Source: Rugamonas rubra
Lineage (GTDB): Bacteria > Pseudomonadota > Gammaproteobacteria > Burkholderiales > Burkholderiaceae_D
Direction: 5' to 3'
Length of the DNA: 64,000 nucleotides
Assembly: GCF_900114705.1 (NCBI RefSeq)
Contig: NZ_FOTW01000009.1
Location: 169,994-233,993 of the forward strand
Made by a program: the position numbers and the translations under genes. Shown piece after piece: positions 10,410-53,817 of this stretch; the stretch's first letter is position 1, and every line of letters begins with the position of its first letter. The notes beneath the pieces were generated by a model that made no database searches, was not told the DNA's origin, and saw only the letters and a program-made list of their open reading frames with translations.

Positions 10410-10435
10410 AGGGTCAGACCCTAGGGTCTGACCCT
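10410..10435. repeat. GGGTCnGACCC palindromic repeat, copy A
   Basis: Perfect 26-bp palindrome made of AGGGTCAGACCCT and AGGGTCTGACCCT, itself built of two 11-mer palindromes. It lies in the 143-nt gap between degQ and the glutaredoxin gene. The same 26 bp plus the following GGATT recur exactly at 33406-33436. Confidence 0.9.
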
Positions 10436-10506: not shown

Positions 10507-11994
10507 CTACTTGGCCGCCGGCCGCAGCGAGACGAACTGCGTCACGTCGCCGCGCCGCACCAGCACCACCGAGGCCTTCTTCGGATCGAGCTTGGCGACG
10601 GCGGCGTTGAACTGCCTGGCGTCCTTGATCTCGACGTTGTTGAGTTGCAGGATCACGTCGCCGGCGTGCAGGCCGGCGCGCGCCGCCACGCCCTCGGCCG
10701 CGTCGACCGCCGCGCCGCCGTCCAGGTCGAGCGCCTTCTTCTGCGCCGGCGTCAGGTCGCTGACCTTCAGGCCCAGCGCGTTGGCGGCCAGCTCGGCCTT
10801 CGGCTTGGCGGCCTCGGCCTTGGCCTTGGCGCTCTTGTCGGCCTCCAGCTCGGCGATGGCAACGCTGAGCTCCTGTTGGGCACCCTTGCGCCAGATGGTC
10901 ACCGTGGCCTGGCTGCCCAGCGCGCTGCCGCCGACCAGGCGCGGCAGGTCGGACGAGCGGTTGATCTGCACGCCGTTGAACTTGAGGATGATGTCGCCGG
11001 CGCGGATGCCGGCCTTGTCGGCCGGGCCGCCCGGCTCGACCAGCGAGACCTCGGCGCCCTGCGCGCTCTTCAGCCCCAGCGACTCGGCCACTTCCTTGCT
11101 CAGCTCGCCGATCTGCACGCCGATGCGCCCGCGCGTGACCTTGCCCGATTTCTTCAACTGGTCGGAGACGCGCATCGCCTCGTCGATCGGCACGGCGAAG
11201 GAGATGCCGTTGTAGCCGCCGGACAGGGTGGCGATCTGCGAATTGATGCCGATCACCTCGCCGCGCATATTGATCAGCGGGCCGCCCGAGTTGCCCGGGT
11301 TGACCGCGACGTCGCTCTGGATCAGCGCCAGGTAGTCGCCGGTGTCGCGCGACTTGGCCGAGATGATGCCGGCGGTGACGGTGTTCTCCAGGTTGAACGG
11401 CGAGCCGATGGCGATCACCCACTCGCCGACGCGGATCTTGCTCGAATCGCCCATGGTCAGGCTGGGCAGCTTGCCGCCCTCGACCTTCAGCAGGGCCACG
11501 TCGGTGCGCGCGTCGGCGCCCAGCACCTTGGCCTTGAACTCGCGCTTGTCGGTCAGGGTCACGTAGACCTCGTCGGCGCCGTCGACGACGTGGGCGTTGG
11601 TCAGCACATAGCCCTCGGGCGAGATGATGAAGCCGGAGCCGACGCCGCGCTGCACCTCCTCCCCCTGCGGCGCCTGGCGGCGGCCGCGCGGCGCCTTGCC
11701 GCCCGGATTCGGCGTCGGCACGGCGCCGCCGAAGAAGCGGCGCAGGAACTCCTGCATCTCCTCGTCGCTCGGGCCGCCTTGAGCGCCCTGCCCCAGCTTG
11801 AGGCGCTCGGTGGTGCGGATGTTGACCACGGCCGGGCCAACCTTGTCGACCAGCTCGGTGAAATCGGGCAGGCCGGCCACGGCGGCGGCCTGGGCGGCGG
11901 GCGCCAGGCCGAGCACGGCGGGCGCGAACAGGACTCCGGCGCTGAGCATCAGCGCCGACAAGGTTTTACTACCAGCAGAGAAGTTATTTTTCAT
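10507..11994 (-). CDS. degQ: Periplasmic Do-family serine endoprotease with two PDZ domains
   Basis: DegP/DegQ/MucD-type chaperone-protease for misfolded envelope proteins. A Sec signal peptide covers residues 1-37 (hydrophobic core 12-30, cleavage likely near AQAAA). The trypsin-like domain has H135 (TNAHVV), D165 (ARTDVALL) and S236 (NPGNSGGPL). Two PDZ domains follow from about residue 285. The Q-linker 65-115 is Gly/Pro-rich. The length of 495 residues matches MucD. It belongs to the rpoE-rseA cluster, but rseB is absent. Its own heat-shock-like promoter is at 12114-12141. The symbol could equally be mucD or degP. Confidence 0.93.
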   Translation of the reverse strand: MKNNFSAGSKTLSALMLSAGVLFAPAVLGLAPAAQAAAVAGLPDFTELVDKVGPAVVNIRTTERLKLGQGAQGGPSDEEMQEFLRRFFGGAVPTPNPGGKAPRGRRQAPQGEEVQRGVGSGFIISPEGYVLTNAHVVDGADEVYVTLTDKREFKAKVLGADARTDVALLKVEGGKLPSLTMGDSSKIRVGEWVIAIGSPFNLENTVTAGIISAKSRDTGDYLALIQSDVAVNPGNSGGPLINMRGEVIGINSQIATLSGGYNGISFAVPIDEAMRVSDQLKKSGKVTRGRIGVQIGELSKEVAESLGLKSAQGAEVSLVEPGGPADKAGIRAGDIILKFNGVQINRSSDLPRLVGGSALGSQATVTIWRKGAQQELSVAIAELEADKSAKAKAEAAKPKAELAANALGLKVSDLTPAQKKALDLDGGAAVDAAEGVAARAGLHAGDVILQLNNVEIKDARQFNAAVAKLDPKKASVVLVRRGDVTQFVSLRPAAK

Positions 11995-12113
11995 GGAAAG
12001 TATCGTTCTTTTTGGGAGTTCGGGAAACGCGGGGCGCCCCGGCCGCTACGCGACTAAGCGTACGCCGGGAGCGAGACACATGGTAAGCGAAATTTCGCCT
12101 TGCCGCATGCGCA

Positions 12114-12141
12114 AGATATAGCATCTGGCAGCTTTTTCAAG
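12114..12141 (-). promoter_or_regulatory. Candidate sigma-32-type promoter for degQ
   Basis: On the minus strand CTTGAAA is followed after 13 nt by CTATATCT. The -35 heptamer is a perfect match to the heat-shock consensus; the -10 element matches only partly. Heptamer and spacer are the same as in the clpB promoter at 33290-33317. Transcription would start about 110 nt before the degQ ATG. Confidence 0.45.
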
Positions 12142-12201
12142 GGCACGGCGGGGGGGCAAGATGAGTGCAGCTAGGCAAACAAGACCCAAGAGCGCAAACC
12201 T

Positions 12202-12231
12202 GGGGTCGCCCCCCCCGCGGGGTCCGACCCC
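12202..12231. repeat. GGGTCnGACCC palindromic repeat, decayed copy
   Basis: GGGGTCG, a run of C, then the intact palindrome GGGGTCCGACCCC. It lies in the 288-nt gap between rseA and degQ, just where rseB would be expected. It looks like a degenerate member of the family seen at 10410, 22472, 33406, 53788 and 54971. Confidence 0.6.
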
Positions 12232-12282
12232 GGCTCTCCGCCGTTGGGTGGTGCTATAGCCGCCGGCGCCTTGACAGCGGGC

Positions 12283-12669
12283 TCAGGGCAGAATGGGGGC
12301 GGCCAGGGCGCCGCCGGGGCCGGTCTGGCGCGCCGCCGCGTCGGCCGCCTGGACCGGCACTTGGGACTGCTGTGCCGCCTGCGCCGGCGCTGCCGGCTGG
12401 TGCGCGCCCCCGGCTGCCGGCTGGGCGGCCTGCGCCGCCGCGTCCGCGCCGTCCTCGGCCGCCAAGCGGAGCGCCACGCGCGCCGCGAAGTCGAGGCCGG
12501 GCCGCGCCTCGGCACCGCGCAGCACGTCGCCGACCAGGTGGTAGCTCTGCCAGGCCAGGCGCGCCTCGGGGTCGTTCAGCGCGGCCAGCGTCAGCTCCAG
12601 TTCGCTATCGGGCAGCTCGCCGTCGGCCAGCGCCGAGATGTTTTCATGCAGACTCTTCAGGGTATCCAT
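12283..12669 (-). CDS. rseA: Anti-sigma-E protein, RseA N-terminal domain only, no membrane segment
   Basis: 128-residue protein whose first ~80 residues (MDTLKSLHENISALADGELPDSE... HLVGDVLRGA) match the RseA/MucA N-terminal domain that clamps sigma-E. The remaining 50 residues are Ala/Gln/Pro-rich and end at a stop with no hydrophobic helix and no periplasmic domain. Known RseA proteins are single-pass membrane proteins cut by DegS and RseP, which this form could not be. I start at the ATG at 12669, because the upstream in-frame residues overlap rpoE. It lies between rpoE and degQ. A premature truncation or a real soluble variant are both possible. Confidence 0.8.
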   Translation of the reverse strand: MDTLKSLHENISALADGELPDSELELTLAALNDPEARLAWQSYHLVGDVLRGAEARPGLDFAARVALRLAAEDGADAAAQAAQPAAGGAHQPAAPAQAAQQSQVPVQAADAAARQTGPGGALAAPILP

Positions 12670-12748: not shown

Positions 12749-13351
12749 TTACCAGCGCTTGTCAATCGGCAAATCCAACAAGGGGCGCAATTTCTCCGCG
12801 ATCACCTCGCGCGCACGGAAGATACGGCTGCGCACGGTGCCGATCGGACAGGCCATGACCGCCGAGATCTCCTCGTAGCTCAGACCCTCGATCTCGCGCA
12901 AGGCGATGGCGGTGCGCAGATCGACCGGCAAGGCGTCCATGGCGGCGTTGACCGTCTGGGCGATCTGCTTGCTGGCCAGCAACGACTCCGGTGTGTTGAT
13001 ATCGCGCAGGTGGTCGCCGTCGTCGAACACCTCGGCCTGCTCGGCGTCCGTGTCGGTCGAGGTCGGCGTGCGGCGGCCCTGGTTGATGAGGAAGTTCTTC
13101 GCCGTGTTGATGCCGATGCGGTACAGCCAGGTGTAGAAGGCCGAGTCGCCGCGGAAATGCCGCAACGCGCGGTAGGCCTTGATGAACGTCTCCTGCACCA
13201 CATCTTCGGCCTCCGCCGGATCATGCACGATGCGCGACACCAGCCGCATCAAGCGCCGCTGGTATTTCGACACCAGCAAATCGAATGCCTGCCTCTCACC
13301 TGCCCGGACCCTGTCGACCAGCAGCTGATCACACTCACGTTCTGTTGTCAC
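12749..13351 (-). CDS. rpoE: RNA polymerase sigma factor RpoE (sigma-E, ECF family)
   Basis: Envelope-stress sigma factor. The 200 residues contain sigma region 2 (DLLVSKYQRRLMRLVSRIVHDPAEAEDVVQETFIKAYRAL... FYTWLYRIGINTAKN) and region 4 (LPVDLRTAIALREIEGLSYEEISAVMACPIGTVRSRIFRAREVI), joined by an acidic linker. It is the first gene of rpoE-rseA-degQ. The promoter-like element at 13430-13458 matches the sigma-E consensus, which suggests autoregulation as in E. coli. It precedes rseA by about 80 nt. No frame problems. Confidence 0.97.
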   Translation of the reverse strand: MTTERECDQLLVDRVRAGERQAFDLLVSKYQRRLMRLVSRIVHDPAEAEDVVQETFIKAYRALRHFRGDSAFYTWLYRIGINTAKNFLINQGRRTPTSTDTDAEQAEVFDDGDHLRDINTPESLLASKQIAQTVNAAMDALPVDLRTAIALREIEGLSYEEISAVMACPIGTVRSRIFRAREVIAEKLRPLLDLPIDKRW

Positions 13352-13429: not shown

Positions 13430-13458
13430 TATAGAGTTAGCGCACTGCAATAAGTTCA
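13430..13458 (-). promoter_or_regulatory. Sigma-E-type promoter upstream of rpoE
   Basis: Minus strand: TGAACTT, 16 nt, TCTATA. This fits the sigma-E consensus (GGAACTT, 16-17 nt, TCnnA) with one mismatch in the -35 element. The expected start near 13423 gives a leader of about 70 nt before the rpoE ATG. Its place immediately upstream of rpoE fits the known autoregulation of sigma-E operons. Confidence 0.75.
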
Positions 13459-13475: not shown

Positions 13476-13895
13476 TTACTGCTCAACGCCGCGCGCGGCG
13501 ATGGCGCGACACGCCACCACCAATCCGCGCAGCTCCGTGCCGGGCACCACCGTCAACGTCGTCAAGCGGCCATCGGCATGGCGCAGACGCAGCAACAGCA
13601 AGCCCGGCCACAGCGTCGATCCGGCCAGCAAGACGACTGGTTCGGCGGCGCTGACGGCCCCTGTCTGTTGGTATACCGTCAGCCGAATTTGTCCGACAGC
13701 GGAAATATCAAGCCGGCTTAGCATAGGCTGGCGCGGCGGCAACAGCAGCCCCGCCGCCCCGCCCAGCAGGCAGGCGGCCGGCCAGCACCAGCCCGGGCAC
13801 AAGACGGACGCGACCATGACGCAAACGCACACGGCCGTATGCGACAGGCGCAGACGGGCCGAGGGGCGAACGACGACGGACACCGCGATCGACAT
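13476..13895 (-). CDS. YgfX-like small inner-membrane protein
   Basis: 139 residues. The N-terminal third is hydrophobic, with one or two membrane helices at about residues 20-52 (rich in Cys and Trp). The C-terminal part reads LWPGLLLLRLRHADGRLTTLTVVPG... LRGLVVACRAIAAR. This layout (short basic N-terminus, membrane hairpin, then a small beta-rich domain with an LLLRLR..DG motif) resembles E. coli YgfX/CptA. I infer the family from pattern alone. The function is unknown: YgfX has been linked to cytoskeletal inhibition. It lies between the fabF terminator and the rpoE promoter. Confidence 0.6.
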   Translation of the reverse strand: MSIAVSVVVRPSARLRLSHTAVCVCVMVASVLCPGWCWPAACLLGGAAGLLLPPRQPMLSRLDISAVGQIRLTVYQQTGAVSAAEPVVLLAGSTLWPGLLLLRLRHADGRLTTLTVVPGTELRGLVVACRAIAARGVEQ

Positions 13896-22471: not shown

Positions 22472-22501
22472 GGGGTCTGACCCCGTACGGGGTCAGACCC
22501 C
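22472..22501. repeat. GGGTCnGACCC palindromic repeat, copy C
   Basis: Perfect 30-bp palindrome: GGGGTCTGACCCC, GTAC, GGGGTCAGACCCC. It lies between the converging RsmI-like and EAL-HDOD genes. Both flanks (GCAAA before it; GCGTATCGGGGTGCGGGG after it) recur with few changes at the copy near 53.8 kb, so the repeated unit is about 55-60 bp. Confidence 0.9.
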
Positions 22502-33405: not shown

Positions 33406-33431
33406 AGGGTCAGACCCTAGGGTCTGACCCT
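33406..33431. repeat. GGGTCnGACCC palindromic repeat, copy B
   Basis: Identical 26-bp palindrome to the one at 10410-10435, including the GGATT that follows. A further half-site, CTGACCCTGG, occurs at about 33475-33484. It lies between moaE and clpB. Confidence 0.9.
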
Positions 33432-53787: not shown

Positions 53788-53817
53788 GGGGTCTGACCCC
53801 GCACGGGGTCAGCCCCC
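53788..53817. repeat. GGGTCnGACCC palindromic repeat, copy D
   Basis: GGGGTCTGACCCC, GCAC, then GGGGTCAG with one base lost from the second arm. In inverted orientation its flanks (CGGGGTGCGGGG on one side, GCAAAGGGG on the other) match those of copy C at 22.5 kb. It lies in the 201-nt gap after the zinc-ribbon gene. Confidence 0.85.

Follow-up and report, generated by a model that had tools for sequence, protein, structure and literature searches.

An RseA that lacks its membrane half, with no RseB, in the sigma-E operon of Rugamonas rubra and its relatives

What does sigma-E respond to in a bacterium whose RseA appears to have no membrane helix and whose genome has no rseB? RpoE, RseA, RseB, DegS and RseP make up the textbook envelope stress pathway of Gram-negative bacteria, and an earlier note on a stretch of 64,000 nucleotides from Rugamonas rubra (the whole stretch is called the window here) held that this cell would need another way to inactivate its anti-sigma factor or else has lost envelope control of sigma-E. 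The question reaches beyond one species; a clade of soil and water bacteria lacks the membrane half of the sigma-E system, and the alarm is probably wired differently there. Such a clade is a natural experiment: what is sigma-E for when it is blind to the outer membrane by this path, and how is damage sensed instead? It also bears on the limits that an anti-sigma factor sets to the evolution of its partner, with successive truncation stages that can be compared inside one family and one genus.

On the minus strand of the window the gene order is fabF, a gene for a small membrane-type protein, rpoE, rseA and a Do-family protease gene (Table 1). The earlier note was right that degQ comes next and that rseB is missing: the frame following rseA matches the TIGR02037 protease model, and the MucB_RseB profile finds nothing, linked or unlinked, anywhere in the R. 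rubra genome (6.83 Mb, 100% complete). That genome has a single RseA_N match, i.e. no second RseA, which disposes of a second complete rseA-rseB pair, one of the two findings that the note had named as fatal to its reading. Nothing near the locus scores above the Rfam gathering score. The small membrane-type protein between fabF and rpoE (13476-13895, minus strand) has a sub-threshold match to Cpta_toxin, at 14.6 of 27.3 bits.

Table 1. Features of the sigma-E locus, in window positions.
Feature	Position	Strand	Basis or remark
degQ/htrA-type (Do family) serine protease gene, right after rseA	10507..11994	minus	TIGR02037, 481 bits
rseA-degQ intergenic region	11995..12282	minus	position of rseB in the 20 rseB-bearing family loci read; none detected here
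Imperfect palindrome with interspersed GGGGTCnGACCCC-type repeat copy	12184..12249		arms 12184-12214/12219-12249
rseA, predicted soluble product	12283..12669	minus	ATG at 12669, stop at 12283; 128 aa; profile match, hydropathy, predicted structure
Last five RseA codons, A-P-I-L-P	12286..12300	minus	fits the loose C-terminal ending only, not the full motif
rpoE (sigma-E, ECF02 type)	12749..13351	minus	TIGR02939, 305.7 bits
Sigma-E-type promoter motif GAACTT-N16-TCTAT before rpoE	13431..13457	minus	motif reading

The RseA encoded here is as the note described it, with the N-terminal domain only and an Ala/Gln/Pro tail. The anti-sigma domain spans residues 1-81 as four predicted helices and gives way to a predicted disordered Ala/Pro/Gln tail that ends in APILP. 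Pfam RseA_N (PF03872) matches residues 8-86 with 68 bits against a cut-off of 24; no other Pfam family matches the protein at E ≤ 0.1, the periplasmic RseA_C domain was not found, and the NCBIfam model of full-length RseA scores 41.5 of 263 bits. No transmembrane helix is seen, the 19-residue Kyte-Doolittle maximum being 0.79, a value reached where the longest frame runs on upstream of the ATG. The AlphaFold model (mean pLDDT 70.5) has helices at 3-15, 21-30, 34-52 and 61-81, followed by a tail of low confidence. The four best Foldseek rows for this model are all MucA-cyto from Pseudomonas aeruginosa AlgU complexes (PDB 8z6g, 6in7), with probabilities of 0.99-1.00 and modest E values of 0.02-0.08; structural alignment gives Z 7.0 for 8z6g_A and Z 4.8 for 1or7_C, both over helices 1-3 only. 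A second structure comparison ranks RsiW first (5wuq_C, Z 7.2), tied with MucA; with a helical bundle, Z values under 8 carry little weight.

Is the sigma-binding face preserved? PMC7406223 describes a D11 to H change in Escherichia coli RseA that abolishes activity, and the counterpart of D11 in the window protein, as aligned to 1or7 chain C, is D16 in helix 1. This aspartate is invariant in 31/31 aligned proteins (an alignment that leaves out the named loci L013, L019, L021 and L027) and present in 60/60 genus members; I11, S12, E25, L26, A39, W40, L50, R51, F61, L69 and E72 are likewise invariant in the 31. The median dN/dS of the anti-sigma domain within the genus is 0.41 (1164 of 1770 pairs within the divergence filter), which suggests a domain that is constrained, but loosely to moderately so. 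By its domain, its contact aspartate and its modelled fold, the window protein would belong with the RseA/MucA family, the class I anti-sigma factors of ECF02 RpoE, and is predicted to bind sigma-E.

The earlier note also saw a decayed palindrome in the place of rseB. The palindrome is indeed in the gap, but it has nothing to do with rseB: the GGGGTCnGACCCC-type repeat that it carries is interspersed, with 14 matches in the window (at most 2 mismatches) against 5.1 expected, a number that none of 100 shuffles reaches, and of the rseA-degQ gaps at 60 genus loci just the one in the window holds a copy. We therefore rejected the palindrome as a relic of rseB, and its distribution indicates that it is no part of the sigma-E circuit. 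Paired GGGGTCnGACCCC or AGGGTCnGACCCT palindromic units lie at 10410-10435, 12202-12231, 22472-22501, 33406-33431 and 53788-53817.

Comparison with relatives, which the note had proposed as a check, bore out the absence of both the membrane half and a convincing rseB across the genus. RseA_N is found in 63 of 74 genus genomes and MucB_RseB in one, weakly (G048; 21.9 bits, 22.3 with neighbours). This candidate for a hidden rseB lies on contig C45 while rpoE and rseA are on C12; it reads, on inspection of the sequence, as a LolA-like ORF and was rejected. The rpoE loci were fetched from 73 genomes (G055, the one without, is 60% complete) and comprise 60 with a full anti-sigma domain, seven with a reduced "mini" form, three with no rseA and three cut by contig ends. 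None of the 60 readable full-domain genes encodes a membrane helix after the domain. From the start of the domain onward hydropathy stays at or below 1.36 in 59 of these proteins, and the 60th is L222; in L222 and L226 a hydrophobic stretch lies solely upstream of the aligned start and is read as untranslated. Mini-RseA retains helices 3 and 4 only (77-99 aa as read, upstream extension included), and where rseA is absent the rpoE-degQ distance is 220-232 nt.

The same state extends past the genus, with named loci of Duganella, Rugamonas, Pseudoduganella, Massilia and Janthinobacterium lacking both helix and rseB. In a family sample, rseB occurs in 137/245 genomes and 35/44 genera, and at all 20 rseB-bearing loci read (19 genera) the RseA frame measures 183-284 aa and includes a segment whose hydropathy is at or above 1.5. 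A tight hydropathy criterion, which misses two of 26 rseB-bearing loci (L240, hydropathy 1.5; L244, 1.92), picks out an Ala-rich hydrophobic stretch at 3 of 92 readable rseB-less loci, and this stretch could be a weak membrane segment. Some genomes are probably present under two ids (e.g. L035/L251), and counts are not all independent in the 20-locus hydropathy reading, the tight screen, the set of 80 tails and the two marker trees considered below. Taken across these genomes, a helix-free RseA without rseB is the state of a lineage and no local accident; the earlier note was correct about the soluble-looking RseA and the missing rseB, and the frame shifts from a single cell to a whole lineage.

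When were the helix and RseB lost? In a marker tree of FabF, LepA and DegQ (87 taxa, FastTree, local supports), the large-genome genera without rseB (g1, g4, g6, g12, g19 and the named Massilia/Janthinobacterium loci) unite with a support of 1.0, and the node linking them to L251, which keeps both helix and rseB, has a support of 0.981; the tree indicates that helix and RseB were already absent from the ancestor of the Massilia/Janthinobacterium/Duganella-type clade. A second group without rseB (g7 and g41; Oxalobacter-like, support 0.998) is placed elsewhere in this tree, and the independence of its loss rests on the marker tree because a free RpoE tree sets the group beside the short-RseA clade. 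The mini group (7 tips) and the group with no rseA (3 tips) are each monophyletic with a support of 1.0 in the 87-taxon tree, and have 1.0 and 0.998, respectively, in a FabF+LepA tree with few outgroups. In the outgroup-poor tree the helix-bearing L035 and Oxalobacter fall inside the short-RseA clade; the better-sampled 87-taxon tree differs. In the free RpoE tree the rseA-less set joins L187 at a bootstrap of 59; the mini set forms a group with L208 and L212, both of the genus, at 72, and this group lies basal to the short clade. Conserved gene order speaks for vertical descent of rpoE, with which the free RpoE tree is compatible, weakly supported as it is, and xenologous replacement is unlikely.

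How, then, might such a system work? We favour, as rather probable, a reading in which RseA is a born-cleaved soluble inhibitor, free sigma-E is set by the operon and by cytosolic turnover, and the envelope is not read via DegS, RseP and RseB. RseA would leave the ribosome already in the form of the soluble cytoplasmic inhibitor, which elsewhere arises only through the cuts of DegS and RseP, and would titrate sigma-E, with synthesis of the two balanced by an autoregulated rpoE-rseA operon. Its turnover would fall to a cytosolic AAA+ protease, most likely one such as ClpXP, perhaps with SspB, acting at the exposed C-terminus, and envelope damage would no longer be sensed through DegS, RseP and RseB. 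What the sequence displays is the loss of the helix, the periplasmic domain and RseB and the retention of the anti-sigma domain, its contact residue, the promoter motif and, in many relatives, a C-terminal peptide; we infer binding to sigma-E, cytosolic location, turnover route and physiological consequence.

The proteolytic machinery is largely still there, and what appears to have gone is the region on which it acts. RseP exceeds the cut-off in 73 of the 74 genomes of the genus, that of R. rubra included (the exception, G056, is 83% complete), and SspB is found in 72 of 74 and in 71/71 good genomes. A search of the R. rubra genome for a DegS/AlgW-like protease yielded a protein with a hydrophobic N-terminus and protease-PDZ order, which scores 313 bits where the DegS model demands 423. 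The note's point that canonical release by DegS and RseP does not apply here is sound even with RseP and a DegS/AlgW-like protease encoded: with neither membrane helix nor periplasmic domain, the window RseA would give DegS and RseP nothing to cut in the known way. The cytoplasmic fragments RseA-cyto and MucA-cyto are described as keeping sigma binding and going to ClpXP via SspB for degradation (PMC8103513, PMC13251409), and SspB as the bridge between AlgU-bound MucA-cyto and ClpXP (PMC13251409).

These fragments are the nearest known likeness. With E. coli RseA the window protein has in common the anti-sigma domain, the contact residue (D11/D16) and the order rpoE-rseA, and it resembles the E. 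coli fragment left after both cleavages as presented in PMC8103513. It differs in lacking the helix, the periplasmic domain and RseB, and in a variable tail with its own C-terminus that does not come from proteolysis. MucA of P. aeruginosa is membrane-bound and works with MucB, neither of which holds for the window RseA; moreover, truncated MucA is a mutant state in P. aeruginosa, whereas truncation is the fixed state of the window's clade. Among class I anti-sigma factors about 35% are predicted to be soluble, and a zinc motif is present in about 72% of that fraction (PMC7406223); soluble anti-sigma factors are described as arising by truncation of membrane-anchored ones (PMC8103513). The window RseA is of this truncation type, but free of cysteine, and its partner is an ECF02 RpoE, a pairing treated as membrane-anchored in these two sources. 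Truncation of anti-sigma factors to soluble forms is known in general; among the titles and abstract openings that searches of an open-access library listed, none gives an account of it for the RpoE/RseA pair of this clade. The Dechloromonas, Azospira and Accumulibacter-type loci (L046, L049, L062, L066-L068) also have rpoE followed by a degP-type gene with no rseB detected, but there, unlike in the window, the HMMs do not detect rseA either. An RseC-like ORF, recognized by inspection, follows rpoE in four of the five such loci read (L046, L066, L067 and L068; L049 was left unread).

The main rival to a working titrator is that RseA is vestigial: sigma-E would be free of its anti-sigma factor, its level fixed by fabF-rpoE transcription, and rseA would be on its way out. 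We consider this unlikely; several observations speak for it. The mini and rseA-less groups make it plausible as an end point, and since 10 genus genomes have a shortened anti-sigma domain or none, the lineage can do without it; the dN/dS of the intact domain fits as well. Against this, the domain and its key aspartate persist in the window species and 59 other readable genus members, many of which have a conserved C-terminus in common, the window keeps its promoter motif, and even the mini forms look constrained in their helix 3-4 part (mean pS 0.471, pN 0.183) and less so in the tail (0.494 and 0.390).

The behaviour of RpoE bears on the same rival. We took the ratio of RpoE to marker branch lengths on the fixed marker tree, with 38 of the 73 genus loci included. 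It is 0.54 for terminal branches of rseB-bearing loci, 0.44 across the remaining short clade and 1.33 for the other genus members; the stem of the short clade has 2.17 and the Oxalobacter-like group 1.27. The mini group reaches 4.19 (stem 6.16) and the rseA-less group 8.37, which counts toward the vestigial reading. Acceleration is not exclusive to these two groups: high single branches occur at L337 (8.8), L240+L247 (7.4, rseB-bearing), L195 (6.6), L187 (5.3) and L208+L212 (4.5). In the rseA-less group purifying selection on RpoE is still in force, with a median dN/dS of 0.197 (3 pairs) against 0.032 for FabF and 0.041 for LepA of the same three genomes; in the short group the values are 0.086, 0.115 and 0.097, respectively. 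At the interface, R149 and R178, which PMC7406223 connects with RseA D11 and the -35 element, are unchanged. Changed cells number 2/70 (mini) and 3/30 (rseA-less) on the sigma-2 face that meets helix 4, and 14/42 and 5/18 on the sigma-4 face, and both faces are described as also contacting core polymerase and promoter (PMC7406223).

The promoter tells a similar story. A scan for GAACT-N15-18-TC within 350 nt before rpoE finds the pattern at 47 of the 63 genus loci that belong to neither the mini nor the rseA-less group, at 14/14 in g4, g6, g12 and g19 and at 16/20 rseB-bearing loci, and at 0/7 mini and 0/3 rseA-less loci, a further point for a vestigial RseA. The 16 genus loci without the pattern are relatives of the mini group; their -35 is mostly GAACC, followed in most by TCTATA or a form derived from it. 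At the mini loci the gap upstream of rpoE has become so short that a compressed motif abuts the start codon; in the rseA-less group no motif pair of promoter type is seen before rpoE. These motif readings suggest that promoter change and RseA erosion go together, and the motif in the window points to autoregulation of rpoE. A strict scan of the R. rubra genome (GAACTT-N15-17-TCTAW) gives 6 matches against 2 in the reversed control and does not recover a sigma-E regulon, the convincing match being the rpoE promoter only. Between the two possibilities that the note had left, loss of envelope control looks better supported than an alternative route of RseA inactivation, because two sub-clades have a further shortened rseA or none at all, with RpoE drifting at the same time.

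What is the C-terminus for? Across 80 soluble RseA proteins tail length varies between about 12 and 160 residues, with a composition rich in Ala, Pro and Gly, and hydrophobic residues (I, L, V, F, M, Y, W) take up 37% of the final five positions (148/400) against 10% (251/2503) in the rest of the tail, the tails of L222 and L331 beginning too early and taking in part of the domain. Among the 60 genus members, by patterns drawn up after inspection of the sequences, 37 fit [AVDTP]-[VIAT]-[IVMTF]-[LFIA]-P, 28 the stricter [AD]-[VI]-[IT]-[LF]-P, and 39 the loose ending [ILVMTFA]-[LFI]-P. The codons vary synonymously, Pro being written by four and Leu by four, while the residues hold, so the peptide is the conserved thing. 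A tethered hydrophobic C-terminus of this kind would look like a protease tag or a docking peptide. The RseA peptide is not known as a ClpX tag of the -LAA type, and the APILP of the window fits no more than the loose ending; both points count against the degron part of the reading that we favour. At L195 (G011) the tail carries a Thr-Asp/Thr-Gly dipeptide expansion, which suggests slippage-driven change of tail length.

If the peptide docks on a hypothetical partner in the membrane or in signalling, envelope control could act in trans. The motif is conserved as a peptide after tails whose length varies between 12 and 114 residues in the 37 full-pattern members, as a tethered docking peptide would be, and RseP and a DegS/AlgW-like protease persist; still, Massilia and Janthinobacterium types end differently, and RseP has other substrates (PMC8144685, PMC10470546) by which its retention can be explained. 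We regard this possibility as improbable. A soluble redox-type, zinc-binding (ZAS) anti-sigma factor has a precedent in another betaproteobacterium, Neisseria meningitidis, where the gene for MseR lies directly downstream of rpoE and the pair is autoregulated, but MseR is described as a ZAS protein that needs its cysteines (PMC2893595), and the 128 residues of the window RseA include none; with no cysteine there is no ZAS motif, and this alternative is refuted for the window protein save for a sliver of doubt. That a sequencing or assembly frameshift took the membrane half, the other finding that the note had named as fatal and one to which a GC-rich, repetitive tail lends some colour, is refuted as nearly as can be, because the helix-free form is repeated in 60/60 readable full-domain genes of the genus, several in single-contig assemblies, and rseB is missing too.

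With the born-cleaved inhibitor as our preferred reading for the window, can its origin be placed in a series? A strict coupling of helix and RseB was considered and is not upheld: L259 (G248), L261 (G276) and L262 (G096), from genera that otherwise bear rseB, have a helix-bearing RseA of 196-221 aa (hydropathy 1.8-2.1) and no rseB between rseA and those following frames that were read; a degP-type gene follows RseA in G276 and G096, and the contig of G275 ends just after rseA. From three genomes we infer that RseB may have been lost first and the helix later. Because g5 (G211, G231, G241 and G279) and g28 (G100) have an RseA frame of 77-89 aa with neither helix nor rseB, the two have been lost more often than the 87-taxon tree displays. 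The loci concerned (L268, L271, L275, L278 and L338) belong to small-genome or MAG-type relatives. Intermediates and extra losses inform the path by which the parts disappeared and leave the working of the window RseA untouched. A stepwise dismantling in a large clade within the Oxalobacteraceae, and several times among relatives of that clade, from loss of RseB and then of the helix and periplasmic domain, through a cytosolic titrator with a degron-like tag, to mini and absent RseA in two sub-lineages of the genus, promoter loss and a burst of RpoE change toward a free-running sigma factor, is a possible history that we put forward tentatively.

Two further observations concern relatives. In G083, G086, G108 and G113 of the family sample (4.9, 2.2, 3.7 and 2.3 Mb), four of 30 genomes searched, no RpoE match at E ≤ 1e-50 was found, and sigma-E may be missing or divergent there. 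At four loci of Massilia aquatica/mucilaginosa type (L019, L027, L327 and L328), all without rseB, RseA has an Ala-rich tail of about 150-160 residues containing a 19-residue stretch of hydropathy 1.7-1.9 that is poor in bulky residues and may be a membrane segment, either weak or regained.
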